Source: a virus
IMG/VR virus record: IMGVR_UViG_3300046512_000087
Location: 29,404-93,403 of that record
Direction: 5' to 3' (one strand)
Length of the DNA stretch: 64,000 nt
In this document: one piece after another, positions 15,353 to 56,061 of the stretch
How positions within the stretch are numbered: the stretch's first letter is position 1
How the letters are laid out: each line of letters opens with the position of its first letter
The notes under the pieces: model-generated
Database searches by the model: none
The model's input: only the letters and a program-made list of their open reading frames with translations
Told to the model about the DNA's origin: nothing
Made by a program: the position numbers and the translations under genes

Positions 15353-15380
15353 ATCTTACCAAATTTGGTCAGTTTGTCAA
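15353..15380 (-). promoter_or_regulatory. Sigma-70 promoter
   Basis: Minus strand TTGACA (15380-15375), 16-bp spacer, TAAGAT (15358-15353), then a leader with CCAATGGAGTGAGCC before the ATG at 15320. The -35 box overlaps the end of the upstream phosphatase gene. Confidence 0.85.
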
Positions 15381-15845: not shown

Positions 15846-15873
15846 GTGTCACTCCATTGTTTCAAACGGGACT

Positions 15874-16176
15874 TCAGGAATATTCGACTTTGACCTCTCC
15901 GGCCCAGCCACATTTTGCACAACTCAGACCTAAGCAGTCTGGGCATTCTTCATGCACCGTCAGAGCCTGGGAGCCCTTTCGGTATACAACAACGTCGTCC
16001 AGCTGGCTCATGCGGGAAACCCGGTCGCCCTTTACCTCGAAGATCCAGCCGTGGAATCTCCGGTTGCCACGCTCATGAGTCAGGACAGCAGCCTTCTTCA
16101 CCATATCGCTCACGTCTTCAACCTTCAGGCTTAGGGACAGGCAGACATGGGTTACCTGGGGGCTGAATTCAAGCAT
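15874..16176 (-). CDS. Zinc-ribbon protein, 100 aa
   Basis: A 100-residue protein starting MLEFSPQVTHVCLS. The C-terminal part has CPDCLGLSCAKC (about residues 82-93), four cysteines in two CxxC pairs, a likely zinc ribbon. The ATG lies inside the end of the CsrA-like gene after GGGCAGG. A longer reading frame upstream is only a shadow of the CsrA-like gene. Confidence 0.7.
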   Translation of the reverse strand: MLEFSPQVTHVCLSLSLKVEDVSDMVKKAAVLTHERGNRRFHGWIFEVKGDRVSRMSQLDDVVVYRKGSQALTVHEECPDCLGLSCAKCGWAGEVKVEYS

Positions 16177-16441
16177 GACGGCCTGCCCGGTCAATCTGGA
16201 TGCTCCTGGGAGCTTCGATAGCGAGGCGGCTGGTCCGGTGACCCCTGGTAGGGGAAGACACACCGCAACTGATGAAGACGTCAGGCAGGACCTCCTGGCG
16301 CTCTTGATCGTTGATGGTGTATTCGGCGTCAGCGTTGATCTGGATCTTGATCTTCGTGCCGTCTTCGATGTCCAGGACATGAAGGGCATTAGTGCCGATG
16401 GTGATCATGCTACCTACGGATACGCCAAGTGAAAGTGCCAT
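16169..16441 (-). CDS. CsrA-like RNA-binding protein (tentative), 90 aa
   Basis: The N-terminal part (GVSVGSMITIGTNALHVLDI...KIKIQINA) matches the CsrA strand pattern G-x-x-I-x-IG...V-x-V-L...V-x-I-x-I-x-A. The end (RLAIEAPRSIQIDRAG) closely resembles the CsrA stretch ending in AP..I.I.R. Between them is an insertion of about 25 residues (NDQERQEVLPDVFIS and following), so it is longer than the usual 60-75. CsrA binds GGA-containing leader RNAs, and this phage uses GGAGTG leaders throughout. Tentative assignment. The ATG follows GGAGTA. Confidence 0.5.
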   Translation of the reverse strand: MALSLGVSVGSMITIGTNALHVLDIEDGTKIKIQINADAEYTINDQERQEVLPDVFISCGVSSPTRGHRTSRLAIEAPRSIQIDRAGRHA

Positions 16442-16445
16442 GATT

Positions 16446-16859
16446 CTATACTCCTAATAGACCCTTAGCCGCTGATGTCAGGTTCCAGGTACTGCCACCC
16501 TGAACTCCGCGCCTGGACTCCGGTGCTTCCACCAGACCCTTCGCTCTCAGGATTGTCAGGTAACTGGACACATCCGAAACAGAAAATATGTTTCCAAGAT
16601 CCGCCAGGGTCTGAGTGACCTCGGCAGAACTCGCAATTTCCAACGCTGTGAGAACCTTCAGGGTGTTCCACAGCTTCGTGTCTCTCTTGGGTAACTTGAT
16701 GTCCTCGCGGGTGTCCGTGCGCAGGATCTTCATGTTTTCCAACTGTGTGTACACCACTTTCTGGAATCCACACATACACTGAAGGGTCAAATCCACTCCA
16801 TTGCTTGTGGTGTACCGCGCGTTTGGCGACCCACACTTTGGACACTCCGTTCTGACCAT
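16446..16859 (-). CDS. Zinc-ribbon, winged-helix DNA-binding protein (putative regulator)
   Basis: A 137-residue protein. An N-terminal zinc ribbon (CPKC at 6-9, CMC near 28-30) is followed by a winged-helix-like domain (TLKVLTALEIASSAEVTQTLADLG...VSSYLTILRAKGLVEAPE, about 66-115) of the MarR/ArsR look. Likely a transcription or RNA regulator of the phage. The ribosome site is weak. Confidence 0.65.
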   Translation of the reverse strand: MVRTECPKCGSPNARYTTSNGVDLTLQCMCGFQKVVYTQLENMKILRTDTREDIKLPKRDTKLWNTLKVLTALEIASSAEVTQTLADLGNIFSVSDVSSYLTILRAKGLVEAPESRRGVQGGSTWNLTSAAKGLLGV

Positions 16860-16898
16860 GTGCTTTCTGCCGGTTAGATATTTCCGGCATTATAGGCA

Positions 16899-18866
16899 TC
16901 ATGCCAGCAACTCAGCAATCAGCTGGCGCTCGGTAATGTAGCCATGTTCAGTCACTACCCCGAAGCTCACGATCTTGATCCCCTGGCTTAGCTTCCATTC
17001 CAGCACCTTAGTCACGGCTTCTGTCGGTTTACCCGTCCAGACCACATCCTGTTCTGCCATTACCAGCTGCTCAAGATCTTTGGCGGAGGCCACGGTTTTG
17101 AGTTTGGTTTTCCATGGGGTCAGCACCCTTAGCTTTTTCTTTTGGTCTTCAGTGAGGCTGGACTCCAACATTTCAATCAGGGCTATATCCTTGGACTTGT
17201 CGTGATCCTCCGAGCGGAAGGGAGCAAAGAACTGCTGTTCCTCATGCCCAAGGGCTCTCGACAAGTCCAGGGTCAGGTCGAAGCTCTCATTGAGGGCCTT
17301 CTTCACGTAGTCCACGGCTTCGAGTACCGGCATGAACAGCAGCTCTGGCATCCGCAACAGCACCCCGTTGGTGACCAGCTTGTGTTCACGGGTGATCTCG
17401 TTGCAATTGATTGCAGCCCACATCATGGCCTTGAACTGCTGGATGTACGGGTCGGCACTGCCGTCAATAACGGGTACTTCGTGCATCCATACCCTGCCGG
17501 TGGCTCCATCAATGGAGACGGTGTTGCCCTCGACAAAGAAGCTGATGTCGGCACCGAGCCCAACCACACAAGGCTTGTTCATGCCCCTGGCAACTACCGC
17601 TGCGTGGGAGGTGGCGCCGCCAGTCATGGTCAGCACACCCTTGGCAGCATTCATTCCCCCAATGTCATCCGGGGTAGTTTCAGCGGTCACCAAGATGCAC
17701 GGGGTTTTGCAATTGATTGCAGCTTTCGATGAGGTGACGATCACTCCGCTTACAACACCAGAACAGGCGGGAATTCCCACGTAATCAGCCACGTTCAGGT
17801 AGTTAGGGTCCAGGATCGCCATCTGAGCCGTGTCGAACTGCTTGGCTGTAACCCGCTTCAGCGCCGCCTTGTAGGTCAGGGAGTAATCCTGGCACAGATC
17901 CAAGGCCAGTCTCACCGCCGCCCTGGCGCTACGCTTGGCATTCCGGGTTTGCAGGATGTAGAGCTGGCCGGACTGTACAGTGAATTCAACATCCTGCACG
18001 TCCTTGCGCTGCTCTTCCAGCTGGGCCACGGTATGCATCAACTGGTGGTACGCCTGAGGGTTCCAGGCTTCCATTTGCTGCAACGGGTCTGGGGTGCGGA
18101 TGCCAGCCACCACGTCCTCGCCTTGAGCCTTGATCAGGTACTCACCCAGGATATACGGCTCGCCGCTGTCAGGGTTACGGGTGAACAGGACACCAGTGCA
18201 GGACTTGTCATCCATGTTGCCGAAGACCATGGCCTGGACTGTCACGGCTGTGCCCCACTCTTCAGGGATGCCATTCAGGTCCCGGTAGATCTTGGCCCGA
18301 GGATTCTGCCAGCTTTCGAACACTGCCTTGATAGAGCCCAGGATCTGTTCCTCGGCATCCGGGAATTCTTCCTCGGCGTGTGCTTCGTACAGGTCCGACC
18401 GTTTATTCAGGTCCAGGCCTTCGAAGTGTTCACGGGGAATACCGGCCACTACACTGCCGTACATTTCAATCAACCGACAGGCGCTGTCGTTGGTGCATTC
18501 CTCGCCAATGCGCTTGGACCATTCTTCATAAGTGCCGGTGTCCAGACCCACGTTCAGGATCGTATCCATCATCCCGGGACAACTCACGCGAGCCCCCGAG
18601 CGCACCGACACCAGAGGCATGTAGCCAAAGTGCTTCTGGAGAGCCTTCAGATAAGGCTTGATCTCCTTCCGCACTTTAGTCATGAACTTGTCGGGGTTTT
18701 TGCAGAACTCTGCGTAGTTGGTCGTCGGGATCACGAAGCCAGGAGGAATGGGCAGACCTTCTTGGGTCATCTTCACCAACCCGGCGCCTTTACCCCCCAG
18801 GACCTCTACCGATTCTTCTTCAACGCTGTAGCCTTTGAGACCAAAAGCCTGGATATTTAAAGACAT
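16899..18866 (-). CDS. Truncated pyruvate phosphate dikinase-like protein (ATP-grasp plus phosphohistidine domain)
   Basis: A 655-residue protein. The PPDK ATP-grasp domain is clear: GGKGAGL 24-30, SVRSGARVSCPGMMDT 87-102, VQAMVFGN 210-217, AQGEDVVAGIRTP 247-259, LYILQTR 302-308. The swivelling domain has GGATSHAAVVARG with the phosphorylatable His at 421. The C-terminal 230 residues are not the PEP/pyruvate TIM barrel, which is absent, so ordinary PEP synthesis is unlikely. It may pass phosphate to another acceptor, as rifampin phosphotransferases do. Two 14-bp repeats lie inside, both read AINC. Confidence 0.85.
   Translation of the reverse strand: MSLNIQAFGLKGYSVEEESVEVLGGKGAGLVKMTQEGLPIPPGFVIPTTNYAEFCKNPDKFMTKVRKEIKPYLKALQKHFGYMPLVSVRSGARVSCPGMMDTILNVGLDTGTYEEWSKRIGEECTNDSACRLIEMYGSVVAGIPREHFEGLDLNKRSDLYEAHAEEEFPDAEEQILGSIKAVFESWQNPRAKIYRDLNGIPEEWGTAVTVQAMVFGNMDDKSCTGVLFTRNPDSGEPYILGEYLIKAQGEDVVAGIRTPDPLQQMEAWNPQAYHQLMHTVAQLEEQRKDVQDVEFTVQSGQLYILQTRNAKRSARAAVRLALDLCQDYSLTYKAALKRVTAKQFDTAQMAILDPNYLNVADYVGIPACSGVVSGVIVTSSKAAINCKTPCILVTAETTPDDIGGMNAAKGVLTMTGGATSHAAVVARGMNKPCVVGLGADISFFVEGNTVSIDGATGRVWMHEVPVIDGSADPYIQQFKAMMWAAINCNEITREHKLVTNGVLLRMPELLFMPVLEAVDYVKKALNESFDLTLDLSRALGHEEQQFFAPFRSEDHDKSKDIALIEMLESSLTEDQKKKLRVLTPWKTKLKTVASAKDLEQLVMAEQDVVWTGKPTEAVTKVLEWKLSQGIKIVSFGVVTEHGYITERQLIAELLA
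17402..17415 (+). repeat. 14-bp dyad repeat in coding sequence
   Basis: Exact copy in the PPDK-like gene, read as AINCN. Confidence 0.95.
17708..17721 (+). repeat. 14-bp dyad repeat in coding sequence
   Basis: Exact copy in the PPDK-like gene, read as AINCK in a linker before the phosphohistidine domain; 306 bp from the previous copy. Confidence 0.95.
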
Positions 18867-20613: not shown

Positions 20614-20797
20614 GTTTCATACCCTCCAGGATCTTCTGGGCTTTCGGACCCGGGAATCGGCGCCATTTGATGTGTGGGTAGTCAGCTGCCACTTGCCTGA
20701 ACGTGTGCCAGCTGCACCCAAACTCTTTGAAGGCTGAGGTCCTACTATGCCCCTTTGCGGCCAGGGCCATCAGAACAGCCTCCACTGACTCAGACAT
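20606..20797 (-). CDS. Small protein with possible helix-turn-helix, 63 aa
   Basis: A 63-residue protein. SRTSAFKEFGCSWHTFRQVAADYP looks like a helix-turn-helix. It overlaps the HNH gene start region on one side and the 111-aa gene on the other. Possible DNA binding; unproven. Confidence 0.65.
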   Translation of the reverse strand: MSESVEAVLMALAAKGHSRTSAFKEFGCSWHTFRQVAADYPHIKWRRFPGPKAQKILEGMKRE

Positions 20798-21731
20798 TCT
20801 CTCGGGCCATCCGGCGTTTATGCTCTGTCATCAGAGCCCGGTAAGTATCAGGTGGCAACATGTCCTTGGCTACAGTTTTGAGCAACGTGCCGTAGGCGAA
20901 GTCTTCTTCCTTGTGTATAGCAATGTTCACCAGTTTCAAATACACCCGGACTTTCGCCAGCTCCTTGCGGGCCTTCGACTTGGCCGACAGCCAGTAATTC
21001 TTCCGGGACTTTTCCAGCATCATCCGGGCTTCAGCATCCATGTACCGGCCAGCAGCGTCAGCCTCCCGCAACTGGAGGATCACCTTCTGCTCAATCAATG
21101 GCAGGCGGGACACCGCCGCGTAGTCGATGATTGGCGGGTCCTCGGCAAACACCATCGGAGTGAAAGGGATCTCTTCACGCGGTATCAACACGGCTGGTTT
21201 CTCCACCACCGGCAACTCCACTGGAGCCTCCAGAAACTTAGGCGGTGATTGCACTACCGTAAGCTCTGGCATGTCATGGGAGCGGGAGACATTGCAGGGC
21301 TGGCAGGCCAGGGTCATGTTGTTCCTACCATCCAGTCCTCCCCTGGCAAGGGGGATGATGTGCTCCAGTGTCGAGGTGTTGATAGTCACCTCACAGTTGC
21401 ACCACCGACAGGTATTTACACCCTTGTCCAACAGGGCCTGCCGGTGGCCTCTGCTCTCTTTGCTCCGGCGCCGAGCACGGTCCATCTTCGGAACAATAGC
21501 TGGAGCCCGGTTAGCCATCTCCACGGCCTCCAGGGGCGACACGTCATGCTTGCCTCTCACCGTGCCTGCAACATAGGCCGTGCGTTTGCTGCTGAACGGG
21601 TAGTAGTTGACCAGCAGCTGGCCTTTGATTTGGAAGTGGCCTGGGGCGGGTTCCGAAAAGTCCAGTTCTCTATCTTTGCACAGCTGATACAACGTAGCGT
21701 ACATCGCGTTCTGGGCCGTCCGTGTGCTCAT
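20790..21731 (-). CDS. HNH endonuclease, 313 aa
   Basis: An HNH nuclease with CRWC about residues 108-111, LEHIIPLARGGLDGRNNMTLACQPCNVSR (H, N and zinc-binding C pairs). A long helical C-terminal part (about residues 190-313) has no known domain. The start overlaps the DUF262 gene end (ATGA). The pair DUF262 plus HNH recalls GmrSD-type restriction, though those HNH parts usually belong to DUF1524. Confidence 0.85.
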   Translation of the reverse strand: MSTRTAQNAMYATLYQLCKDRELDFSEPAPGHFQIKGQLLVNYYPFSSKRTAYVAGTVRGKHDVSPLEAVEMANRAPAIVPKMDRARRRSKESRGHRQALLDKGVNTCRWCNCEVTINTSTLEHIIPLARGGLDGRNNMTLACQPCNVSRSHDMPELTVVQSPPKFLEAPVELPVVEKPAVLIPREEIPFTPMVFAEDPPIIDYAAVSRLPLIEQKVILQLREADAAGRYMDAEARMMLEKSRKNYWLSAKSKARKELAKVRVYLKLVNIAIHKEEDFAYGTLLKTVAKDMLPPDTYRALMTEHKRRMARENV

Positions 21732-22540
21732 GCCTGCTTCTCCAGCTCAGCCTTGTACAGGGCTTCTACGTGGGCGATGTGTTCCTGGGTCTGAGCCACA
21801 CCGGCAGCGTTACAGGCCAGGAACATCTTCAGGCAATCAGCCCGGCTGGCATTCTCCGGCAGAGTGCAAACGGCTACAGCCCTGTCCTCGAAGTTGTGGC
21901 GGTCCATATAGGACAGCTGATACCAGAACTTGCCGCGCCAGGACCAACGCCCCTCCATGAAGTCCAGGATGGCGTTGATGCGCTGCTTACCGTCGATGAT
22001 TTCAGTACGGTTTTCAGGCCACTTGTGGTGTTTGAAGATGAAACTGCCAATCGGGTAACCAGCAGCGATGTTATCCATCAAGGCCACCCGGTCTTCTTCA
22101 GTCCAGACATAGCCACGCTGGTAGTCGGGATTGTCGATGTAGCCCCAGCGCTGGATGCTGCTCAAGGCGCTACCAACGTGCTGGTTGGAGAACGGCCACA
22201 TCCAGCTACGGCCAATCATGGTGGTGTCTTCCCTGGTATCCAGCGGGATCACATCAGTCCAAGGCCACGCCCCGTACTTGATTCCGTCGTCAAATGGTCT
22301 CCCGTACTTCTCACCTTTGTCCAAGCACTTGATCACAATCACCTTGCCATCGTGGGCAGTGGCCACTACTTCAGGCTCCACCAGATTACCAACTTCCACT
22401 TTCATGCCCGGCCACAGAGTCCAGGTGGGCTCTGATAACGATGCTGGGTCTGTAAGGCGGGTGCTTTCAAAGTTACTGAGGCAGAGCTTGATCCACTCTT
22501 CTTCAGTTTCTGGGAGTTTCACTACTGCTTTCTTCGCCAT
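21728..22540 (-). CDS. DUF262 / ParB-like fold protein
   Basis: A 270-residue protein. Residues about 137-200 show the DUF262 pattern: NPDYQRGYVWTEEDRVALMD, GYPIGSFIF, EIIDGKQRINAILDF (the DGQQR-like motif). This domain is the N-terminal half of GmrSD and related NTP-dependent restriction enzymes; alone in phages it often stands by nuclease genes. The roughly 100 N-terminal residues are unknown. Directly followed by an overlapping HNH gene. Confidence 0.8.
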   Translation of the reverse strand: MAKKAVVKLPETEEEWIKLCLSNFESTRLTDPASLSEPTWTLWPGMKVEVGNLVEPEVVATAHDGKVIVIKCLDKGEKYGRPFDDGIKYGAWPWTDVIPLDTREDTTMIGRSWMWPFSNQHVGSALSSIQRWGYIDNPDYQRGYVWTEEDRVALMDNIAAGYPIGSFIFKHHKWPENRTEIIDGKQRINAILDFMEGRWSWRGKFWYQLSYMDRHNFEDRAVAVCTLPENASRADCLKMFLACNAAGVAQTQEHIAHVEALYKAELEKQA

Positions 22541-45519: not shown

Positions 45520-47373
45520 CTACGCGGTCTCTGCATCTTGGTATTCAGCAGTCTCTTCTTTCACTCTGCTGGCGCTCAGGTACTCTTCTGTCGGGGCTAT
45601 GCCATGCTGACCCCACACTTCCCTACGTAGACAGATGCCATACACAACGCCTGCAAGGGCGTCTGCCACGTCTTTCGAGTTGTAGGCGTTGTGGTCTACC
45701 TTTTTCTTCTTATGGTTGATCTCAAGGGCTACCAGCTCCTTCTGCAACAGGTCGTGGTGGGGGAGCATGACGCGCTGATCATACAGAGCCCGCTTCAACA
45801 TGCTGTACGGCACCATGCTGGTGTCCATGGATTCAATGCCTGCCGCAAAGCCCTTCTGCCTGAGGATCTGTACGGTGTCTCGGCTCTGGTAACTGTCGAG
45901 GCTCACCCACTGGATAGGCATGCCCAGGTCCCGCAGCTTATACAGCAGACTCCTGATCTTGTTGAACTGGATCTCCCCTGCTGGAGGCGGGCGCACTTCC
46001 AACACCATGTCGATATGGACTTCGGGGCACATCTCTTCTTCCCTCAGCACGAACCGAGGTACATGGCCAATGACTACCCCGGCGCTGTCTCCTGTCAATG
46101 CCAAGTCGATGTGGCAATACCGGGGGTACTGAAGGTTCTTGAACCTCTTCGGCAGGATGATGCAAGGCATGGTCTGGAAGTCAGTTACCTGATCCCGGAC
46201 GACGTTATGACCCTTGCCAAAGTTCGACACCACCATCTCACTGTTGGGCATGAACGGGGCGGTGGCCAGGGTGCTATGACCAGCGATGTCTCGTAGGGCC
46301 TTGGTGATGTCTTCCTTGAACTCCTGGGCGAACTCTACGGGCACATGGTCGAGCAAGTGCATGTCCTGCTCTGGCAGCTCTTCTGCTTCCTGCTCTGTCA
46401 GTACACGGGGGCGGCGCACAGCATCCCCCACGAACAATGGGAACATGTCGCCACAGAAGGCATGAGGCTTGATATCCCATACGCGCTTGTCATAGACGAA
46501 GATGCGCGGGTTTTCTTTGGCCTCTTCCATCTTAGTATCCGTGAACTCGCCGGGTATACGCTTAGACGAGACCACGCACAACAGCCCTGGGATATTACGG
46601 CCTGCCTGCATGAAGCGGGACTTACGGCGCCGGGCAATCGAGTTATACAACTCAACAGCTTGGTTGTAAGTGCCGCCATCTGCCGACTGCTTCGAGTTCT
46701 CAACTACCGCCATGAAGTTGATCTCGTCGATGATGCCTCCAATGATGTTCTGGCCAATCGAAGCCGTCTCGCTACCGGACACTGGCTCTACTTCGATGTT
46801 GTTGTCGAAGCGCAGGATCGAGGTCAGGCTACGGTCGAACGGGAATACGGTCTTGAAGTAAGGGCTCGCGGCGATCAGGTTGTAGAACCGGTTGAAGTCA
46901 ACGGTCTTGGCCGTGCTCTTACGCAGGGACTGGAAGATCATCTTCAGTTCTGAACTGGAGTCCAGGCCAAACGACTGCTGGGGGTTCGCCATGCAGGACA
47001 GCACATACAGTTGATACGCCTGGGAGTACAGGGCAATCGTAGTCTTGGCTGACCCGATGCCTCCTGTGAGTACAGCCTCATCATAGCGCCCGCTGTTCAT
47101 CTCTTCGAACTCACGGAGTACAGGCGGGTAGACCTCACTGGCCTTGTTCAGATAGAACTGGCTACACAGAAAGGTCTTAGCATCTACTGGCTCTCGTACC
47201 CAGGAGATCGGGGCGAGGAATTCCTTGTCGTTAGCCACCAACATCTTGATCAGATTCACCAGCCATAGATGGCGTCGGTCTGGATCGGTGATGGTGTTGG
47301 CCTGTGCAATCAATTGCAAAGTTCGCTGAGGCCCCAGCAGTCCTTCTAACACTCGCTCGGGGGTTGGCCTCAT
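45520..47373 (-). CDS. Terminase large subunit
   Basis: A 617-residue packaging motor. ATPase: Walker A GGIGSAKT near 104-111 and Walker B GGIIDE near 212-217. Nuclease part: CHIDLALTGDSAGVVIG, SLDSYQSRD and NAYNSKDVADALAG, which carry the metal-binding acids. Overlaps the small subunit (ATGA). A reverse repeat encodes LQLIA at residues 19-23. Confidence 0.92.
   Translation of the reverse strand: MRPTPERVLEGLLGPQRTLQLIAQANTITDPDRRHLWLVNLIKMLVANDKEFLAPISWVREPVDAKTFLCSQFYLNKASEVYPPVLREFEEMNSGRYDEAVLTGGIGSAKTTIALYSQAYQLYVLSCMANPQQSFGLDSSSELKMIFQSLRKSTAKTVDFNRFYNLIAASPYFKTVFPFDRSLTSILRFDNNIEVEPVSGSETASIGQNIIGGIIDEINFMAVVENSKQSADGGTYNQAVELYNSIARRRKSRFMQAGRNIPGLLCVVSSKRIPGEFTDTKMEEAKENPRIFVYDKRVWDIKPHAFCGDMFPLFVGDAVRRPRVLTEQEAEELPEQDMHLLDHVPVEFAQEFKEDITKALRDIAGHSTLATAPFMPNSEMVVSNFGKGHNVVRDQVTDFQTMPCIILPKRFKNLQYPRYCHIDLALTGDSAGVVIGHVPRFVLREEEMCPEVHIDMVLEVRPPPAGEIQFNKIRSLLYKLRDLGMPIQWVSLDSYQSRDTVQILRQKGFAAGIESMDTSMVPYSMLKRALYDQRVMLPHHDLLQKELVALEINHKKKKVDHNAYNSKDVADALAGVVYGICLRREVWGQHGIAPTEEYLSASRVKEETAEYQDAETA
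47305..47318 (-). repeat. 14-bp dyad repeat in coding sequence, reverse
   Basis: Plus strand TGCAATCAATTGCA near the start of the large terminase gene, read as LQLIA. Confidence 0.95.
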
Positions 47374-48053
47374 CCTCGCATTTCCTCAGTAAACTCGCCT
47401 TCAGCCACGTTTTCATCCGGGCCCAGCACGCCTTCTCCACGCAGGAACTCCAGAGCCAGTAACGTAGCCTGTCTCTCCTGGTCGAAGCCCTGTACCTTGC
47501 TGGCCTGCTGTTGCTCAGCCGCTGACAACTTGTGCTCTACTTCCATAGGCACTTTCTTCAGCATGCCGACGTCCATGTGCAGGCTGGCCAGATCCTTCAA
47601 CATGTAGTGCAGGTTCAAAATGTTCTTGGTCTGGGCGTCCAGGAGAGTAGGGGAGTTCTTTTCTAGCTCGGCCATCTTGGCTACCCGGTGCATCTGGGTG
47701 TGTATCAGCTTCTCCATCTCCTGGATAGGCAGGAACCGGATACCCAGCTCTTCTACCTTCTCGGCCACGCGGGTCAGCGTGTCGTTATCAGCAAACTTGG
47801 CTACCAGGGCTACCTGCTTCGGCTCAATCAGCTCTTCCTTGTAGCGGTACAGCATGCGGCGCAACGTGTTCGGGTCCTTGTCGGTCAGTAGCTCCCACTT
47901 CTGTTGGATCATCCGCACCAATTCCGTGGGCGAGCCGTTACCCAGGATGTGGGTGTCGATGGCAGCGCGCTTATCTAACGGGAGTGAGAGGATGTCCTGG
48001 AACGCAATGGACTTCTTGACCTTCTTATGCTGCACAGGGGCTACTTTTGCCAT
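47370..48053 (-). CDS. Terminase small subunit (by position), 227 aa
   Basis: A 227-residue helical protein just before the large terminase. The N-terminal 90 residues (AAIDTHILGNGSPTELVRMIQQKWELLT...LRRMLYRYK) could be DNA binding and the middle forms long helices (RVAKMAELEKNSPTLLDAQTKNILNLHYMLKDL) for ring assembly. Sequence family not certain. Confidence 0.65.
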   Translation of the reverse strand: MAKVAPVQHKKVKKSIAFQDILSLPLDKRAAIDTHILGNGSPTELVRMIQQKWELLTDKDPNTLRRMLYRYKEELIEPKQVALVAKFADNDTLTRVAEKVEELGIRFLPIQEMEKLIHTQMHRVAKMAELEKNSPTLLDAQTKNILNLHYMLKDLASLHMDVGMLKKVPMEVEHKLSAAEQQQASKVQGFDQERQATLLALEFLRGEGVLGPDENVAEGEFTEEMRG

Positions 48054-48056
48054 GGT

Positions 48057-48854
48057 TTAGCCCTCTACCTTCTCTACCTCGGGGAAGTCCTTCAGAGACT
48101 CCCACAGTTCTGGCATGCCACCTCCTGCAATTGATTGCAAAACCAGACGTACCATCGAGTCCATGCCACGGTTCATTTCCTGGCAGCGGGTAGCCACCTG
48201 AGTGAAGGCTTTCAGGTCATGGGTCTTCAGTGGCAGCCACACGGATTCCTGCTTACCGAAGTCCAGGATCATGAAGCCGAAGGGGAGGGTGTCACCGTAC
48301 TTGGTGAACATTTTGTTTAGCAACACGGACAGACCGTCGATGGTCTTGATCTCTTCCGCTGCCTTCTTGAACTCGGCCTGGGCCTGCTTAGGGAGAGAGT
48401 CGGACATCTGCCCTATCAGCTTCTTGAACAGATCTTCGTCCGCGAAACCAAAAGACTCGGCCAGGAGGTCATCAGAGTATTTCTGGTTCAGGCTCTGGTA
48501 CAGCTTCAGGAACTTCGGAGTATCCAGCTTACCTCTGATCATGTTCATCCGAGTGATCTGGAAGCGCTCCAGGTCTTCGTCGAACTCAGGGTCGTCAATG
48601 ATGGTGCAGGGCACTTCATCAAAGCCCAGGAGCTTGCCTGCTTCATAGCGGTGATAGCCACCAATGACTCGGTACTTGCCCCCATCAATAGGTCTTACGA
48701 ACACTGGATCAATGAAGCCCACGGCGTCGATGTTTGCACACAGGAGATTGAACTCCTTGGCTGACATTTTGTTAGGGTTAATTTCCTGCGGAACGAGCAA
48801 ATCTACCGCAATATTGGCCCGAATTAGCGCTTTTGTCTTAGTTACCGCGTCCAT
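48057..48854 (-). CDS. ParB-like protein
   Basis: A 265-residue protein starting MDAVTKTKALIRANIAVDLL at the ATG with AAGGAG upstream. The ParB/Srx domain shows INPNKMSAKEFNLLCANIDAVGFIDPVFVRP then GGYHRYEAGKLLGFDEVPC, close to the ParB box motifs (GHRR-like GYHRYEA). No clear helix-turn-helix after it. ParB-fold proteins bind CTP or act as nucleases. Lies before the terminase genes. Its gene carries a repeat (48126-48139) coding LQSIA. Confidence 0.8.
   Translation of the reverse strand: MDAVTKTKALIRANIAVDLLVPQEINPNKMSAKEFNLLCANIDAVGFIDPVFVRPIDGGKYRVIGGYHRYEAGKLLGFDEVPCTIIDDPEFDEDLERFQITRMNMIRGKLDTPKFLKLYQSLNQKYSDDLLAESFGFADEDLFKKLIGQMSDSLPKQAQAEFKKAAEEIKTIDGLSVLLNKMFTKYGDTLPFGFMILDFGKQESVWLPLKTHDLKAFTQVATRCQEMNRGMDSMVRLVLQSIAGGGMPELWESLKDFPEVEKVEG
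48126..48139 (+). repeat. 14-bp dyad repeat in coding sequence
   Basis: Exact copy in the ParB-like gene, read as LQSIA. Confidence 0.95.
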
Positions 48855-48864
48855 GTCATACTCC

Positions 48865-49959
48865 TTATGGGCTTGGCGTCTGGAAGCAATTTGGATACTG
48901 AGGACCGGAATCATATCGAGGTAGGCCTAGTATTGATAGCCTGTCGAAGGGTTTCTGTTGTTCGTAGCCGATCTCCATGTTCTCCAACTCTGTTATCAGA
49001 GCGGTATGATCTTGAACTTTTCTCAGCGTCTCAATACTTTCAGAAATCTTATCCAGTGACAGCACTGACTCTCTCACTCTCAGTACCTCTGTGTTCTCAG
49101 TCTTCTCTGTCTCTCCTGTACATAGTTCTTCGTGTAGCTTCTCTCCTGGTCGTAATCCTATTTCTTTTATCTTCAACGGGATTTGCATCTGTTCTGCTAC
49201 CCACGACGCTACCTCGGCAATTTTTTTGGGCTCGCCCATGGTTAGCAGGAAGCGCTGGCCTTGCAATTGATTGCAGGAAGTCACGAGGCTAACTGCCTCT
49301 GGGATGCTCATGAAGAACCTTGTCACAGACATGTCGGTAATCGTCACAGGCATACCCAGGCTCAGTTGCTCATAGAACAGAGGGATCACAGAGCCTGATG
49401 AGCCTATGACGTTACCGAACCTTACTACCTTGCTGCCTTCCACCATACTCAATGCCATATGCTCTACCAGGGCCTTTGTCGCCCCCATTACATTGGCTGG
49501 CTTCACTGCTTTGTCTGTGCTGATTACTACCAGGGATATAGGGGCCCGCAAATTTTTGAGCATGGTGAACAACGAGTGGGCTTCCAGCACATTGTTGTCT
49601 ACAGCCGAGAGCGAGTTCTCTTCCACCATTGGCACATGCTTGTAAGCGCCTGCGTGGAAGCACAGTGTTGGTTCATAGTCTTCAAGCACCTTCTGGAGTC
49701 TTGGGCTTCCATAGCTACCCAGCACTGGCTTTGTTACCACGCCCATCGACACCAGCTTCCGATTGATCTCGTACAGTGAGAACTCATTCAGCTCTACCAG
49801 CACAAGCCTCGACACGCCTTGCAGTGCCAGGAAGGTACACAGGGCGGAACCGATGCTGCCCCCGGCGCCGGTAACCATTATGGTCTGCCCCTGGTACTGA
49901 GTGCCTGTCTCCCATTTGTCCTGGCCCAAGCGAGCCACTAGAGCTTCCAGTGTAATCAT
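48865..49959 (-). CDS. CapD/WbpM-like nucleotide-sugar 4,6-dehydratase
   Basis: A 364-residue short-chain dehydrogenase of the capsule/O-antigen type. NAD site VTGAGGSIGSALC (29-41), then STDKAVKPANVMGATKALVEH (about 145-165), with Met where classical enzymes have the catalytic Tyr, as is usual in WbpM/CapD. Makes a 4-keto-6-deoxy sugar from a UDP-sugar. Last gene of the sugar cassette. A repeat encodes CNQLQ near residue 230. Confidence 0.85.
   Translation of the reverse strand: MITLEALVARLGQDKWETGTQYQGQTIMVTGAGGSIGSALCTFLALQGVSRLVLVELNEFSLYEINRKLVSMGVVTKPVLGSYGSPRLQKVLEDYEPTLCFHAGAYKHVPMVEENSLSAVDNNVLEAHSLFTMLKNLRAPISLVVISTDKAVKPANVMGATKALVEHMALSMVEGSKVVRFGNVIGSSGSVIPLFYEQLSLGMPVTITDMSVTRFFMSIPEAVSLVTSCNQLQGQRFLLTMGEPKKIAEVASWVAEQMQIPLKIKEIGLRPGEKLHEELCTGETEKTENTEVLRVRESVLSLDKISESIETLRKVQDHTALITELENMEIGYEQQKPFDRLSILGLPRYDSGPQYPNCFQTPSP
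49262..49275 (+). repeat. 14-bp dyad repeat in coding sequence
   Basis: Exact copy in the CapD-like gene, the only one read in the CNQLQ frame. Confidence 0.95.
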
Positions 49960-49973
49960 GGTAATCCTTGGTC

Positions 49974-49999
49974 GAAAAAAGAGGGCTTTCGCCCCCTCT
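49974..49999 (-). terminator. Terminator behind the glycosyltransferase gene
   Basis: Minus strand GAGGG..., GAAAG loop region, CCCTC then TTTTTT. It splits the cassette from its last gene, which would need read-through or its own promoter (none seen). Confidence 0.8.
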
Positions 50000-50018
50000 G
50001 ATGGTGATTGTGCTGAGC

Positions 50019-51479
50019 CTACTCTTTTTTCAAATGGCCTGCACGTACCCCGGCGTCCTGGTATCCGAAGTGGAGCTTCAGTGCTACTCGGAGATATTGC
50101 CAGTTGGTCATCCAGATAAGCCCAGCTTCCTCGGCAAATTTCTGGGTGCTCTGTACCTTCAAGGCCGTCAGGTCTTCATGGAGCCCGGCAGACATTGCAT
50201 CGGCCATCACGAACTCAGTGCCTGCGTAGTTCCTGAGTGCGGCTACAGTCCCATTGGTTTTACCGCTCTGGCCCAACTTGACTTTACGGGCTTCAGCTTC
50301 CAGGCACTCGGCCAGCAGGTGGTTGTACATCCCGTCTTCATTCTCACGGCGGGTGTACTCAGGCACAAACCAGGAGCTGTACCACTCGGCAAATTTTGCG
50401 TACATGCCTTCATAGTCGTTCTTGAACAAATTGATCATGCCGAAGCCTTCAGTCTCGTTGGCTACGTAGAACGGGTAGCTTTCTCCCAGCATGCCTACCG
50501 ACCATGGAGCCTTGATAGCGATCAGAGGCACGCCAAACATCACGGGCTCCAACTTGGAGAGGGACAGCTCCACATCGACCGAGAAGGCCAGGGCCACATC
50601 CATTTCTTCCCGGCTGATCCGCCAGAATTCTTCCCGGGCTGGGTGCAGGACTTCAATGGCTTCTGCGTCCAGGAACTTGTCGCCTTCAGTCACGGTGCAG
50701 ACGAAGGGGCGCACTGTCTCCGAGTGCAGGATGAACTGGTTCTTCAGCATGTCGTTCATTACATGGATGCGGGTGCCGAATCTTTCCAGGCGACCCACAA
50801 ACGCCACGCCCAATTTTCGGTCACCCTTGTAGCGGTGCTCGGTCTTCAATCCGTAGTCATGCTTGCTCAGGCGCAGCTGGCAGACTTCACGCAGTTTTTC
50901 ATTCAGGGTCTTCCTGGCCGAAAAGCTCACATGCTCTGCCGCTACTTGAGCCACCCAGGTTTTTTCATGGTAGGCCGGGATAAGAGTGATGTCGGCGTCC
51001 AGGTACGAGGCCAGGAGCATACGGTCTTGGGATTCCGGCGCCGACTGGCCGACAGTGGGCTTCTTGCTCAACACCATCATGTCTTCAATGGCAATGATCT
51101 TGCGCATCCAACCGAGCATAGGCTGGCGAGGGGACGTGGAGATAGCGCGCATCTGGGCGATCTGTGGCACACGGACTGTCACCAACACATCCCAGTCCCA
51201 GGTCTTCACGCTGTAGAAGCTGATCAACTCGGCCATGTCGTCGCTGAGGCGCAGGTATTCACGCATGCGATCTTTGTGCTGGCGGATGGGCAGGTACAGG
51301 ATTCGGTCACTGACTGGGTAGAAGGCTTTCTCTTCGTCATCCAGGCGGTCTGGGATAGGCCAGTAGATGAAACAGGTAGGGTCGGCCTCCAGCAACAACC
51401 CAGCCAGGGTCACAAACTGGATAGTCGTGGAGCACTTGGCTGGGGACGAGGTGAGTATGCAGTCAAACAGGACTTTCAT
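50019..51479 (-). CDS. Glycosyltransferase-like protein (GT-B look), 486 aa
   Basis: A 486-residue protein. Residues about 218-330 (GVAFVGRLERFGTRIHVMND, SVDVELSLSKLEPVMFGVPLIAIKAPWSVGML) resemble the C-terminal half of GT-B glycosyltransferases. An N-terminal Rossmann-like start (MKVLFDCILTSSPAKCSTT) fits too. The last 120 residues are helical. Likely adds a sugar made by the cassette; no sugar-specific motif is seen. Confidence 0.55.
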   Translation of the reverse strand: MKVLFDCILTSSPAKCSTTIQFVTLAGLLLEADPTCFIYWPIPDRLDDEEKAFYPVSDRILYLPIRQHKDRMREYLRLSDDMAELISFYSVKTWDWDVLVTVRVPQIAQMRAISTSPRQPMLGWMRKIIAIEDMMVLSKKPTVGQSAPESQDRMLLASYLDADITLIPAYHEKTWVAQVAAEHVSFSARKTLNEKLREVCQLRLSKHDYGLKTEHRYKGDRKLGVAFVGRLERFGTRIHVMNDMLKNQFILHSETVRPFVCTVTEGDKFLDAEAIEVLHPAREEFWRISREEMDVALAFSVDVELSLSKLEPVMFGVPLIAIKAPWSVGMLGESYPFYVANETEGFGMINLFKNDYEGMYAKFAEWYSSWFVPEYTRRENEDGMYNHLLAECLEAEARKVKLGQSGKTNGTVAALRNYAGTEFVMADAMSAGLHEDLTALKVQSTQKFAEEAGLIWMTNWQYLRVALKLHFGYQDAGVRAGHLKKE

Positions 51480-52153
51480 GGGAGTTCCTTGTCAATGATT
51501 CGAATGGGTACATAGGCCTCGGCAATTCCCTTGCCCATCTGTAGGCCTCGGGTTTTTGCCAGGGTCACCAGACCGTCGTAGCCCACGATGCTCTTTTCCC
51601 GTCCAGACACCTGAGAGGCATGGCATGCGTAGGCTGCCAGCTTGGCTTCCAGGTCTTCCGAGACGAGCCCGACGTACCGCGTGCAATTGATTGCAAAACC
51701 CAATTGCGGGCCGTGGTACTGAGTCGGCTGCTCATAGGCGTAGACACTGGCACCCTCAGCCTTGGTAGGGCGTAGGGCTGCCGTACAGGCCTCCCAGACG
51801 ACGTTGTGATCTTTTGCATGGCTGGGTAGCGGGATGTAGATCTCGTCGTACCCTTCGCGTAATACGGCGTCAAGGGCCGTCACCAGTTTGGAGATAGGCT
51901 GCTGGTCAAAGTTGGAGGCCGATGCAAAGTTCAGCCAGTGGATGTTCGACACCTTGAGGACTTCAGCCGCTTTCTTCTGCTCGTCCATCCGGGTAGTCCA
52001 GCTCACCTTACTACCTGAAGCCATGGCCAGGGTTCCCGAGCCACAAACTACCGCAATGTCAACGGTGTGACCGGCCTTGGACATCTTGTACATGAGCCCG
52101 CCACAGCCAATTTCTACATCGTCTGGGTGTGGGCTGATAAAGAGTGCTTTCAT
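51476..52153 (-). CDS. PIG-L family (GlcNAc) deacetylase
   Basis: A 225-residue enzyme starting MKALFISPHPDDVEIGCGG, with the zinc motif PHPDDVE at residues 8-14 and the second metal site PSHAKDHNVV. Removes acetyl groups from N-acetylated sugars. The ATG overlaps the RmlC-like stop (ATGA) and its end overlaps the next gene. A repeat encodes AINC in the middle. Confidence 0.88.
   Translation of the reverse strand: MKALFISPHPDDVEIGCGGLMYKMSKAGHTVDIAVVCGSGTLAMASGSKVSWTTRMDEQKKAAEVLKVSNIHWLNFASASNFDQQPISKLVTALDAVLREGYDEIYIPLPSHAKDHNVVWEACTAALRPTKAEGASVYAYEQPTQYHGPQLGFAINCTRYVGLVSEDLEAKLAAYACHASQVSGREKSIVGYDGLVTLAKTRGLQMGKGIAEAYVPIRIIDKELP
51682..51695 (+). repeat. 14-bp dyad repeat in coding sequence
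   Basis: Exact copy in the PIG-L gene, read as AINC. Confidence 0.95.
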
Positions 52154-52662
52154 GGGTAATTCCTCGCCCCCTGGAGATCCTTCTCTGAAAAAATCAATGG
52201 CAATCCTACGCACATCGACTGGTACAACTCTGTCAGATCAGGACACACGCCATCCAGGCAGATGCAGTATTCATCACTGGCCTTGTACTCGGTGGTTGAC
52301 CCATACAGGATCACGGTATCGGTCAGAGAAATGATCCCGTTCGCCCACAGGGGAGGGGTGATAGAGGCTTCCATGCCAGGGGTCAGCTTTCTGATTTCGA
52401 AGTTGCACTGCTTGTTCTGGAACCCGGCCACCGGCACCAGGATGTGCAGGGCTGTGCCTTCAAGGACAATCGTAGCCTTGGTCTGAGGCACGACCGAGAA
52501 GTGCAGACCTCGCACAGACCCGGCCACGCTGGTCAACAGGTTCACCTGTTTCAGATCTGGCACGCCCATCTTGGATACGCGCATCAGCTCCGAGAACCCG
52601 CCACGGTGGTCTGTGAAGGTCTTTCGGGCTTTAGGCAACAATGGAATAACCCTCAAGCTCAC
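52150..52662 (-). CDS. RmlC-like sugar 3,5-epimerase / cupin
   Basis: A 170-residue cupin. Signs: TDHRGGFSE near the start (D-RG-F), GSVRGLHFSV with the catalytic His, then EYKASDEYCICLDG, all in the order of dTDP-4-dehydrorhamnose 3,5-epimerases. It acts on a 4-keto-6-deoxy sugar. FdtA-type isomerases are close cousins. Overlaps the aminotransferase end by 32 bases. Confidence 0.8.
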   Translation of the reverse strand: MSLRVIPLLPKARKTFTDHRGGFSELMRVSKMGVPDLKQVNLLTSVAGSVRGLHFSVVPQTKATIVLEGTALHILVPVAGFQNKQCNFEIRKLTPGMEASITPPLWANGIISLTDTVILYGSTTEYKASDEYCICLDGVCPDLTELYQSMCVGLPLIFSEKDLQGARNYP

Positions 52663-53710
52663 CTTCCAGGGCCACCCACAGATCTCGCACGTCTTCTTCG
52701 GTCAGGTCGTGGTGGTAGGGCAGGGCGATGGTAGCGCGGGCAACTTCCTCGCACACAGGCAGGGGCTGGCGCACGAACTCTTTCAGGTGTTCCAGGTGAT
52801 GCAAGGCCACAAAGTACGGCTTCAGCGGCACTGAGCTGTAGGTAACCAGGGTCTTCTTGTCTACTGTCTTGGGCACTTCAATGACGTAGACAAACGGGAC
52901 ATAGGAATCCCCTGGCAGCACACGCTGTACCCGGTACTTTTCAAAGCGGCGGTCGAGAAGGTCGTAGGCGTTGAACTTGCCCACACAGATCTCGTTGAAC
53001 CGCTCCATCTGAGCACAGCCCACGGCGGCATGCAGGTCGCTCATGCGGTAGTTGTAGCCATAGCTCTGTTCATACATCGAAGCCCCGGCCAGGACGCCAT
53101 GACGAGACAGGGCTCTCACTTTTTCAGCCAGGGTCTTGTTGCGGGTCACCAGCATGCCACCATCGCCGGTCGTGATTTGCTTGTTGGGGAAAAACGAGAA
53201 GACAGCAGCGTCTGCGTATTGCCCGACCAGTTCACCCTTGTGGCGTGCGCCAAGGGCCTCGCAAGCATCTTGCACGATGTAGATGGAGCCCGGCAGGATA
53301 TCTCGGATACCTGAGACGTCACACGGGACACCAAAGATGTCCACCGGGATAACGGCCTTGGTGCGATAGGTCAGCACCTGCTGAACAGTCTGCGGGGTGA
53401 TGTTGTAGGTGTGGCGATCAATGTCTGCAAAAACCGGAGTCGCGCCAACGGCCAACACCACATTTACGCTGGCCACCATGGTAAACGGCGAGACAATAAC
53501 CTCGTCACCCGGGCCAATGCCCAGGGCTTCGAGAGCCAGCTTCAGGGCTGAAGTGCCACTGTTCATAGCCACGGCGTAGTCATAGCCCCAGGCCTTGAAT
53601 GCGGCTTCGAAGCGGTCCACGAACGGGCCCGAGGCCAGCTGGCCGGAGTTCATGACTTCCTGCACATAACGGCTTTCAAGAGCAGAGAGATTGGGCTTGG
53701 AAAACTGCAT
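52631..53710 (-). CDS. DegT/DnrJ/EryC1 sugar aminotransferase
   Basis: A 359-residue PLP enzyme. NSGTSALKLALEALGIGPGDEVIVSPFT (51-78), VQDACEALGARHKG (146-159), and SFFPNKQITTGDGG with the PLP-binding Lys (about 176). It puts an amino group on a keto sugar, fitting the dehydratase and epimerase nearby. Confidence 0.9.
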   Translation of the reverse strand: MQFSKPNLSALESRYVQEVMNSGQLASGPFVDRFEAAFKAWGYDYAVAMNSGTSALKLALEALGIGPGDEVIVSPFTMVASVNVVLAVGATPVFADIDRHTYNITPQTVQQVLTYRTKAVIPVDIFGVPCDVSGIRDILPGSIYIVQDACEALGARHKGELVGQYADAAVFSFFPNKQITTGDGGMLVTRNKTLAEKVRALSRHGVLAGASMYEQSYGYNYRMSDLHAAVGCAQMERFNEICVGKFNAYDLLDRRFEKYRVQRVLPGDSYVPFVYVIEVPKTVDKKTLVTYSSVPLKPYFVALHHLEHLKEFVRQPLPVCEEVARATIALPYHHDLTEEDVRDLWVALEGELEGYSIVA

Positions 53711-53712
53711 GG

Positions 53713-54336
53713 TTACACCTCTGGCTTCACGCCGACAAAGATCATGCGGCGGCGCAGAAAAGGGATGGGGAATTTGCCGAAGTAGTAAGCCTGTTCACAA
53801 CGGAAGCCGTTCTCGTACATCAGCTGCTTCAGCTCACCCATTGTGGGTTCACGGACCATGGTCGCATCGGGCTTGTAGCCGTTGAACAGGTTCAGGGGTT
53901 TGCGCAGGCGAGCGGGCAGAGGGTTGTGTGTGACTACAACGATCTTGGCCCCTGGAGTCATCCGGTCCCAAACCCCGCCAAGCAGGGTGTCGAGGTCTTC
54001 CACTTGGTTGATGGTGTGGATGAACGCTACGAAGCCAATCCCGTCTGGGACCAGACTCGGAGTCCTGTAGAAGCTGCAATCCGTATGTCTTTGGGCGGCT
54101 ATGGTCAGGGCGGCAGGATTGACGTCTACCCCGTAGTAGTTAACGCCCTCATCCAATCCGGTCTTGCAGAGCCCGATGAATCGGCCAGTGTTACAGCCCA
54201 GGTCCATGACCTCGGTCACCGGGTAGGGGATATGAGATAGCACTTCGCGTGCTTCTGCCTTCCACCAGGGGGTGGTGGCAAAAACATCAGCCTTTCGTGC
54301 ATATTTGTGGCCCCACTTGGGGTTCAAGGTTTCCAT
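53713..54336 (-). CDS. SAM-dependent methyltransferase
   Basis: A 207-residue class I methyltransferase: VMDLGCNTGRFIG (about 43-55, motif I), VDVNPAAL (motif II), and a late GAKIVVVTHNPLPA. The substrate is likely a sugar or a product of the cassette, from context. The C-terminal GKFPIPFLRRRMIFVGVK is typical of methyltransferases in O-antigen loci. Confidence 0.85.
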   Translation of the reverse strand: METLNPKWGHKYARKADVFATTPWWKAEAREVLSHIPYPVTEVMDLGCNTGRFIGLCKTGLDEGVNYYGVDVNPAALTIAAQRHTDCSFYRTPSLVPDGIGFVAFIHTINQVEDLDTLLGGVWDRMTPGAKIVVVTHNPLPARLRKPLNLFNGYKPDATMVREPTMGELKQLMYENGFRCEQAYYFGKFPIPFLRRRMIFVGVKPEV

Positions 54337-54989
54337 TCAGCGGCTCCAAGGACTTGAGAAAGGGGGTGCTCATGCTCTGCAATCAATTGCAAAATAGAAT
54401 CCGTGCTCAATCCTTGAGTAAGGTGCTGGTAGTGGACGGGGTACTGGAAGTCAGAATCCATGTAGGCCTTCGCGCCAATACCGGCCAGATACCGGAAGTC
54501 TGTTCCTACGTTGCGCTCTAACCGGGTCTGTAGACGCTGGGTCTTGCTTGGGCCCGCTGTGGGCTCTTCGTCAAACACCAGGGGGGTAGTGATGCCCAGG
54601 AGGGTAGCCAGCTGGTACATCAGGACTTTGTTCAGATAGACCAGGGGGACCGGCTCCTGAGTCAGGACATGCAGAAGGTTAACTACTCCCTCCAGGCGGT
54701 GGTGGAACTTGAAGCGCTTCACCATCAGGCTCTTTTCGATCCTTTGGCAAATGCCACCATCGCTGGTAATGATGATGTCTGCCAGTCTCGGCCCGGTCTG
54801 CTGGAAGGGCAGGGTAACCCAAGCATTCTGGATCTTGACTCGGTGTTCAAAATCCCTGCGGCTGAAGTCCGTGGCATTGGAGATCACGCAAACATCCGCC
54901 GACGCCACCTTGTTCCAAAATCCAATCCAGGGCAGGAAGACAGACTGGTGGCTGGCCACTTTTTTAGGAGCAGGCTTTAATCCGTGCAT
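54324..54989 (-). CDS. WbqC-like protein
   Basis: A 221-residue protein with VASHQSVFLPWIGFWNKVASADVCVI near the start, the clear WbqC family signature (HQ..FLPW.G...K). WbqC genes stand in sugar and antigen clusters. Start ATG at 54989 after GGAACTC; it overlaps the previous gene by 26 bases. A reverse repeat encodes LQLIA. Confidence 0.85.
   Translation of the reverse strand: MHGLKPAPKKVASHQSVFLPWIGFWNKVASADVCVISNATDFSRRDFEHRVKIQNAWVTLPFQQTGPRLADIIITSDGGICQRIEKSLMVKRFKFHHRLEGVVNLLHVLTQEPVPLVYLNKVLMYQLATLLGITTPLVFDEEPTAGPSKTQRLQTRLERNVGTDFRYLAGIGAKAYMDSDFQYPVHYQHLTQGLSTDSILQLIAEHEHPLSQVLGAAEWKP
54378..54391 (-). repeat. 14-bp dyad repeat in coding sequence, reverse
   Basis: Plus strand TGCAATCAATTGCA in the WbqC-like gene, read as LQLIA. 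Confidence 0.95.
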
Positions 54990-56061
54990 CAATGAGTTCC
55001 TTGCGAAATTGGTCTGTCTCCATTATGGCTCGGAGTTCCGCATGGCGACTAGGGGTCAGGAACACACTTTTCGCTTCAATATCTTCGGCATGAAGGCGCA
55101 AGGCAGTCAGCTGGGTATTGGTGGCTTCCAGATCTACCAGGGCAGTCTCGGCCTGGAACAGGATGCGGTGGAACATCGGGATGGACACCCAGGCTGGGAA
55201 CACATCGTTGGTGCTCATGAAGATCTTGTTGGCGCGCAGACCATCCCGTGTGTGCTTATCCAACGCCCAGTCAGGAACACCAGCAATGTACACCGGGTCT
55301 TTCAAGGCATAGCTGTTGGTGACCAGGGGCTCGCTGTATTCCATTTCGAGCACCAGGGGCATGGCGGCATTGAGGAAGGCGCAGCTTTTCTTGTTGCCAC
55401 AGTGGTAGGTGTAGAGAATTTCTTTGTCGGTGGTTACCAGGGCCATTTCTGCATCCACGGCAGCCCGGTCACGGACAATCTCGGTTTCAAACCAGGGATT
55501 GGATTTGTCTTCAGCCTTCCAACCCAATTTGGCCATGGTGTCGCCAATGCGGTTGGTCTGAGGATCTTCACGATCAAAGACAAAGTAGGCGCAGCACACG
55601 GCCTCACACAGGGCTCGGCTCTTGGCCTCACGGGTCAGTTCATGTACCAGCCAACTAACAGCGCGGAGCTGGTTGGTAGATTTGCGCACAGCGGCCCAGC
55701 GGCAAAAGTGCATGGTCAACGCACACGCTCTCCAGTTACCAGGGCCCACATCTTCCAGTGCGATAGTTGGCAGTCGAGTCCAGAGGTATTCCCGGTCTGA
55801 GCTGTTGAAGATCGCTTGAGCGTAGAACACAGCCTTTTCAGTCATGCCACGGCGAATGCATTTCTGCATGGCCGAAGCCACTTTGTAGCGGCTGGTGGGG
55901 TCTTTCAAAGTGACGTCGTAGTCCACGAAGTCAAAGCCCTGCTCCCCATTCACAATCTGACCTGTCAACGTTTCCATGGCCCAGGCGTCAAGAGCTGCCC
56001 CGTCAAACATCGGGGCGCCTAAATCTAACTCCAGGTTCTTCTTGATAATCGTCAAAGCCAC
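54964..56061 (-). CDS. RarA/MgsA C-terminal domain-like protein, 365 aa
   Basis: Residues 58-110 (RYKVASAMQKCIRRGMTEKAVFYAQAIFNS, LWTRLPTIALEDVGPGNW) match the helical C-terminal part of RarA/MgsA clamp-loader-like ATPases (S..QK.IR......A......L......L.R....A.EDVG). No Walker motifs are seen, so it is the tetramerising half alone. The remaining 250 residues are unknown. First gene after promoter 56111-56139. Confidence 0.6.
   Translation of the reverse strand: MALTIIKKNLELDLGAPMFDGAALDAWAMETLTGQIVNGEQGFDFVDYDVTLKDPTSRYKVASAMQKCIRRGMTEKAVFYAQAIFNSSDREYLWTRLPTIALEDVGPGNWRACALTMHFCRWAAVRKSTNQLRAVSWLVHELTREAKSRALCEAVCCAYFVFDREDPQTNRIGDTMAKLGWKAEDKSNPWFETEIVRDRAAVDAEMALVTTDKEILYTYHCGNKKSCAFLNAAMPLVLEMEYSEPLVTNSYALKDPVYIAGVPDWALDKHTRDGLRANKIFMSTNDVFPAWVSIPMFHRILFQAETALVDLEATNTQLTALRLHAEDIEAKSVFLTPSRHAELRAIMETDQFRKELIDARIKACS

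Follow-up and report, generated by a model that had tools for sequence, protein, structure and literature searches.

Sugars made by phages are known on DNA as well as on virions, and glycosylation of the virion by phage glycosyltransferases is known, e.g. in mycobacteriophages. Pathways of the PglF/DegT type leading to uridine diphosphate (UDP)-diNAc sugars are known from protein glycosylation. The locus examined here lies on the 93,403-base virus contig IMGVR_UViG_3300046512_000087, of which bases 29404–93403 make up the window (the whole stretch of 64,000 nucleotides that was analysed, and whose numbering is used below unless a locus is named). It consists of seven genes for soluble enzymes, placed in one tight minus-strand run at 48865–54992. 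The run appears to be a variant of phage glycosylation modules in which a whole donor pathway and its glycosyltransferase (GT) are exchanged as a unit, within a fixed slot ahead of ParB and terminase genes, in phages whose hosts span several bacterial orders.

The closest described counterparts are found in Delepquintavirus and its relatives (DLP3, DLP5 and Summit; RcZahn; RHph_Y1_11; KarBoss), which share with the window the slot ahead of ParB, the small terminase subunit (TerS) and the large terminase subunit (TerL), the GT family and a DegT aminotransferase. The slot contains PIG-L, SDR, DegT, methyltransferase and GT genes in DLP3, Summit, RcZahn and KarBoss, and the same set is known for DLP5 through comparison with DLP3 (PMC7326821), while Y1_11 and TM16 have SDR, DegT and GT. 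Most slots of this type share PIG-L and a methyltransferase with the window. However, they carry a small SDR epimerase/dehydratase and another methyltransferase, lack CapD, RmlC and WbqC, and their GT and PIG-L proteins have only 22–25% and 20–25% identity to those of the window, respectively.

The sugar cassette and its predicted donor

In the direction of transcription, the run reads WbqC, methyltransferase, DegT, RmlC-like, PIG-L, GT and CapD-like dehydratase, and continues into a ParB-like gene, a probable TerS gene and TerL. The junctions are overlaps of 4–26 bases or gaps of 2–59 bases, 59 being the largest. All seven sugar enzymes had been named in a sequence-only reading of this DNA, and each was recovered at its place on the minus strand by Pfam or, for the GT, by relatives, structure model and fold.

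The last gene of the cassette (48865–49959, minus strand) matches PF02719 (Polysacc_synt_2, CapD) with an E-value of 1.4e-78 and is predicted to encode a soluble PglF/WlaL-like UDP-N-acetylglucosamine (UDP-GlcNAc) 4,6-dehydratase. It is closer to WlaL/PglF (PDB 5bju, E 4.2e-59) than to the PseB-type enzyme 2gn4 (E 4.3e-30), a comparison that bears on whether its action on UDP-GlcNAc would be retaining or inverting. Its TDK and Met-Gly-x-Thr-Lys (MG.TK) motifs align with those of 5bju, with GAGGSIG at residue 31 and TDKA at residue 148, so that family, nucleotide-binding motif and catalytic motifs all point to the PglF/CapD type. By this homology to PglF the starting sugar would be UDP-GlcNAc. 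No sugar nucleotidyltransferase (PF00483) was detected in the whole contig, whereas the control was detected in 14 of 14 genomes, which bears out the earlier remark that none is seen. The dehydratase homology and this absence also agree with the proposal that the host must provide the starting nucleotide sugar.

The sugar aminotransferase of the DegT/DnrJ/EryC1/StrS family (52631–53710, minus strand; PF01041, E 1e-96) retains the pyridoxal phosphate lysine, with FFPNKQ...GDGG (FFPNKQITTGDGG), and is closest to perosamine synthetases (3bn1, E 1.2e-58). The RmlC-like sugar epimerase (52150–52641, minus strand; PF00908, dTDP_sugar_isom, E 2.4e-11) scores above the Pfam cut-off (44.1 against 27) and below that of the NCBIfam rmlC model (34.9 against 155.75), and retains the RGLH histidine motif. 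The PIG-L/BshB-like N-deacetylase (51476–52153, minus strand; PF02585, E 1.1e-16) has both metal motifs, HPDD at residue 9 and HAKDH (HxxDH) at residue 112; its match to the BshB1 model (E 5.5e-13) lies under that model's cut-off. At the start of the cassette, the S-adenosylmethionine-dependent methyltransferase (53713–54336, minus strand; PF13489, Methyltransf_23, E 5.2e-10) follows the WbqC-family gene (54324–54992, minus strand; PF08889, E 4.8e-19). A search of phages with the methyltransferase returned no matches; its type was also found in the IMG/VR loci L025, L070 and L074. The structure model of the WbqC protein has a mean pLDDT of 41 and no fold was inferred from it; the family recurs in L025, L026, VH2_2019, V-YDF132, SIO-2, Ares1 and DanielleIgnace.

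Collectively, the gene set fits the production and transfer of a deoxy amino sugar, as had been proposed from the sequence alone. Host UDP-GlcNAc would be dehydrated by the 48865–49959 enzyme, then probably epimerised by the RmlC-like protein and given its 4-amino group by DegT, and the methyltransferase and WbqC would tailor the product. A plausible donor is thus a UDP-4-amino-4,6-dideoxy sugar, with its exact structure and the order of the steps predicted from the enzyme families. The GT would transfer the sugar inside the cell, and PIG-L would probably N-deacetylate it, either ahead of this step or following it. The nearest bacterial parallel in design is the Campylobacter PglF/PglE bacillosamine pathway, with which the cassette shares the PglF/WlaL-like dehydratase and a DegT-type aminotransferase as the next step. 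In contrast to that pathway, the window has neither the PglD acetyltransferase nor lipid-linked oligosaccharide machinery, and adds RmlC, WbqC, a methyltransferase and a deacetylase.

The glycosyltransferase

The open reading frame (ORF) at 50019–51479 (minus strand) matches none of the families in Pfam, PHROG, NCBIfam or PADLOC. Its tblastn matches include annotated phage glycosyltransferases, with E-values down to 6e-35, and its AlphaFold model (pTM 0.74) retrieves GT-B enzymes in a fold search, namely SenB (Z 21.8), BshA (Z 20.9) and PglA, the top Z-scores being about 20–22. Annotated relatives, model and fold search together identify the predicted protein as a GT-B glycosyltransferase. It belongs to a ParB-linked phage family: by hhalign, the window GT family matches the GTs of RcTiptonus and JP1 (E 4e-23) and those of Arthrobacter phages (E 3e-22). 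Of the GT4-like EX7E motif, the second glutamate (E311) is conserved in 17 of 17 aligned GTs, while the first position is valine in the window and glycine in L025. The DNA glucosyltransferase of T4 is not among the listed fold matches, an absence which excludes nothing. Scanning IMG/VR with the window GT alone gave nothing, and an alignment of relatives was required to find homologues. Searching host genomes for this GT turned up a single short contig from a metagenome; it carries SDR, DegT, methyltransferase and GT genes and is probably phage.

Exchange of the module in related phages

In relatives from Stenotrophomonas, Rhizobium, Rhodobacter and Vibrio, the slot is occupied by other sugar genes. 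VH2_2019 and V-YDF132 have PIG-L, WbqC, an unknown gene, a methyltransferase, a second WbqC-like gene and a more distant GT. Nearest to the window are L025 (identical to L071), L070 and L074, which share DegT, methyltransferase, CapD, WbqC, PIG-L and GT, followed by ParB, TerS and TerL. Their set is nearly that of the window; however, the gene order is different, an RmlC-like gene was not recognised, and the GT of L025 has ~33% identity to that of the window.

Compared at equal TerL identity (~46%), GTs from cassettes of the SDR type share 42% identity with one another, those of the window type 33%, and GTs of different types 25%; PIG-L identity follows the same pattern. The split between the two types of cassette is strongly supported in the GT tree, whose deep branches leading to Arthrobacter phages, RcTiptonus and L031 are long and uncertain. 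As donor genes and GT change together, the module appears to have been swapped as a unit within a constant frame. An origin of the cassette by horizontal transfer was also considered on grounds of composition and rejected, because its G+C content (55.3%) matches that of the contig (55.4%); G+C at third codon positions is lower in the dehydratase gene only. A megablast search of the region against phages returned zero matches. In locus L035, two ORFs amid the cassette genes (L035:6702–7313 and 9396–10013) have N-termini like those of homing-type endonucleases, as if selfish genes had invaded the slot there.

Linkage of the glycosyltransferase to ParB

The constant part of the slot is one GT family directly ahead of one ParB family. 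In the window, the ParB-like gene (48057–48854, minus strand; PF02195, E 2e-9, and linkage) lies directly downstream of the module, followed by the probable TerS gene (47370–48053, minus strand; assigned by position and homologues) and TerL (45520–47373, minus strand; 48–54% identity to annotated phage TerL proteins). A tblastn search with ParB found the GT-bearing phages of the clade, RcTiptonus and three phages like it, JP1, Kitkat, KellEzio, BeatusComedenti and DanielleIgnace, along with DNA methyltransferase fusions and weak matches. In the four outer phages that were examined (RcTiptonus, JP1, Kitkat and DanielleIgnace), the GT stands directly upstream of ParB. Among loci collected by ParB alone and having at least 1.8 kb upstream (45, several of them near-duplicates or on contigs shared with earlier loci), the GT was found within 1.5 kb upstream in 35 and within 5 kb in four more; two of the remainder are very distant ParBs. 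SIO-2, LV6 and Ares1 have neither GT nor ParB.

Two loci without this GT bear on what the linkage may mean. In L051, the gene before ParB, where the GT would otherwise stand, encodes a Dam-type adenine methylase (L051:1517–2074; PF05869, E 1.2e-14). The other locus, which is related by its TerL (L007:5494–9188), has a DruA-like gene, an LPG_synthase_C-like gene and a weak match to MTase_II, a type II methylase family, before ParB. Further, the ParB domain is similar to the ParB region found in type II DNA methyltransferases (E 3.4e-9).

The acceptor

Phage DNA is, tentatively and with a likelihood somewhat short of even, the acceptor that we infer, because of the GT–ParB link, the replacement of the GT by Dam and the likeness of this ParB to the one within type II methylases. 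Among the parts of the proposed mechanism, the acceptor is inferred above all. The protein of the adjacent ParB-like gene would serve to reach this DNA or to mark it, and the module would be run together with the packaging genes. Identifying the acceptor would decide whether phage ParB-like proteins act in DNA modification or in packaging control. The parallel with T4 glucosyl-hydroxymethylcytosine and other phage base hypermodifications is a phage-encoded cytoplasmic GT, here possibly acting on DNA. However, in contrast to those systems, no hydroxymethylase or other known base-hydroxylating enzyme was found here, and there is no sign of blanket protection from restriction. A T4-type glucosyl-hydroxymethylcytosine was rejected for want of a hydroxymethylase.

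A number of observations weigh against DNA as the acceptor. The thymidylate synthase/hydroxymethylase family (PF00303), ThyX (PF02511) and C5-methylase (PF00145) are absent from the genome although their controls were detected, and so is QueC (PF06508; control detected in 12 genomes), other 7-deazaguanine pathway genes not having been searched singly. Tet_JBP (PF12851) and the 5-hydroxymethyluracil kinase also had no match, but their controls were silent. DLP3 likewise lacks the thymidylate synthase family, C5-methylase and QueC. The linkage itself is imperfect, as ParB occurs without this GT in L049 (with PIG-L in its place), L050, L051 and also L102 (which has little upstream sequence), and L031 has the GT but no ParB within 12.5 kb. 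Further, six-base palindromes have an observed/expected ratio of 0.69 in the window's genome; 16 of the 64 are depleted, mostly to zero against 10–52 expected, while the others are at expectation. In the same calibration the ratio is 0.90 for T4, 0.84 for Vi01, 0.73 for 9g and 0.60 for T7, which is unmodified and which the window's genome resembles in this respect more than T4 or Vi01; phages of the clade that bear the cassette range over 0.37–0.71 and three without it over 0.70–0.78, some of these genomes being partial and the hosts different. In RcZahn, 29 of the 64 palindromes are depleted. Such losses indicate that these genomes were shaped by type II restriction and that their DNA is not broadly protected. 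As an extreme case of restriction-site loss, whole sets of palindromes are missing from the window's contig, DLP3, RcZahn, Y1_11 and KarBoss.

The published restriction data were re-examined in this light. Fifteen enzymes were reported not to cut DLP3 DNA, from which the authors inferred modified DNA (PMC7326821), and DLP5 is listed as uncut likewise (PMC8228603). However, 10 of the 15 have zero sites in the DLP3 genome (MT110073; loci L013 and L014), which again speaks against modification. Those that failed to cut despite sites are SmaI (68 sites), ClaI (18), EcoRI (7), NdeI (4) and XbaI (1), by our site count and the cutting reported in PMC7326821. The published inference hence rests on five enzymes, not fifteen, and the resistance of DLP3 was dropped as good evidence for DNA glycosylation, leaving it as weak support. 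The data are compatible with DNA that is marked sparsely or at directed sites, with protection from defences of another kind, or with an acceptor that is a protein.

One form of site-directed marking would make the GT and ParB a pair that glycosylates pac sites on otherwise unmodified DNA, with a sugar that varies by phage. Adenine methylation marks pac in P1. The idea was prompted by RcTiptonus, which has been inferred to package P1-style with a modified pac site (PMC8601537). Such marking would agree with the ParB–TerS–TerL linkage, with the Dam gene that L051 has where the GT would otherwise stand, and with genomes that lack general protection from restriction; as a specific proposal it is nevertheless unlikely.

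A serious contender to phage DNA is a protein of the virion or of packaging, be it capsid, tail, portal, terminase or ParB, to which the amino sugar would be attached in the cytoplasm before assembly. The match of the dehydratase to PglF (5bju) favours this acceptor, as do the run of the cassette into the terminase genes, which makes late expression likely, the lack of a detected base-hydroxylating enzyme in the genome, and the type II restriction pressure, which is as if the DNA were unmodified. The donor sets also vary widely among relatives, as antigen-like sugars do. With the virion-glycosylation GTs of, e.g., mycobacteriophages the window shares a soluble phage GT able to act before assembly; in contrast to them, its GT is tied to ParB and terminase genes and not to those for capsid or tail, and it adjoins ParB in several lineages. 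Mass spectrometry of DLP3 virions was not searched for glycans and is neutral on this point (PMC7326821).

DNA and virion protein are therefore the uses that survive from the three suggested by the sequence-only reading. The third, alteration of O-antigen, capsule or pilus on the host so as to exclude rival phages, is quite unlikely because no membrane or lipid-carrier gene accompanies the module. O-antigen loci typically contain WbqC, RmlC, DegT and CapD-like genes, and the authors of the DLP3 study proposed modification of lipopolysaccharide by their GT homologue (PMC7326821). However, a hydropathy scan of genes g104–g114 together with family matches revealed no membrane, flippase, polymerase, lipid-carrier or outer-membrane gene, the one transmembrane-like segment in the cassette being a buried stretch in DegT. 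Serotype-converting and O-antigen cassettes have membrane or lipid-carrier components without counterpart here. Further, the cassette stands in one run with terminase genes, and the SDR–DegT–GT relatives (Y1_11 and TM16) also have no membrane genes in the slot. Synthesis of a small molecule by the GT and PIG-L, for instance a glucosaminide resembling bacillithiol or mycothiol, is very improbable. It would suit the closest GT folds, which include BshA, MshA and SenB, the PIG-L match to BshB1, and homologues annotated as BshA and BshB1. However, a ligase of the BshC/MshC type was not observed, the slots of Y1_11, TM16, RcTiptonus and JP1 have the GT but no PIG-L, and the GT4 fold, common whatever the acceptor, is shared here at a sequence identity of 10–16%.

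Flanking gene and genome setting

The sequence-only reading had extended the cassette to 56061. Its sugar set stands, but 54964–56061 (minus strand) encodes a 365-residue protein weakly like the MgsA/RarA C-terminal domain (Pfam MgsA_C, E 0.0044, and synteny), and not a sugar enzyme. A homologue in Kitkat, gp80, matches MgsA_C with an E-value of 1e-8. Homologues border the cassette in RcZahn, KarBoss, Y1_11, L025, L036 and L037, and precede GT genes in the Arthrobacter phages Kitkat and DanielleIgnace.

All 128 genes called on the contig lie on the minus strand. The contig ends overlap by ~130 bases inside recA, apart from a few mismatches at the very end. Although the record is classed as linear, the phage genome is thus effectively complete and circular, with a length of ~93.3 kb. 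Gene absences in it consequently carry weight. Compared with DLP3, which has the same gene order, identity is 68% for capsid, 59–66% for RecA, 54% for DNA polymerase, 50% for portal and 49% for TerL, which makes the phage a distant relative of Delepquintavirus, belonging at least to a separate genus.

A few other features of the window were observed. GmrSD-type systems attack sugar-modified DNA, and a GmrSD_N (DUF262) protein (E 2.4e-21) adjoining an HNH nuclease forms a GmrSD-like pair at 20790–22540; in a phage with its own sugar module, this pair could act on rivals with modified DNA. A gene group at 13567–18866, with a PPDK-like kinase (ATP-grasp and phosphohistidine domain), two dual-specificity-phosphatase-like proteins and a phrog_20946 protein, is kept in all relatives, including SIO-2, which is without the sugar module. 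The label 'thymidylate synthase' on one protein of this group in SIO-2 and others looks wrong, as PF00303 is absent. Finally, an exact 22-base inverted repeat joins 51676–51697, in the PIG-L gene, with 61859–61880, in a ruvC-like gene.

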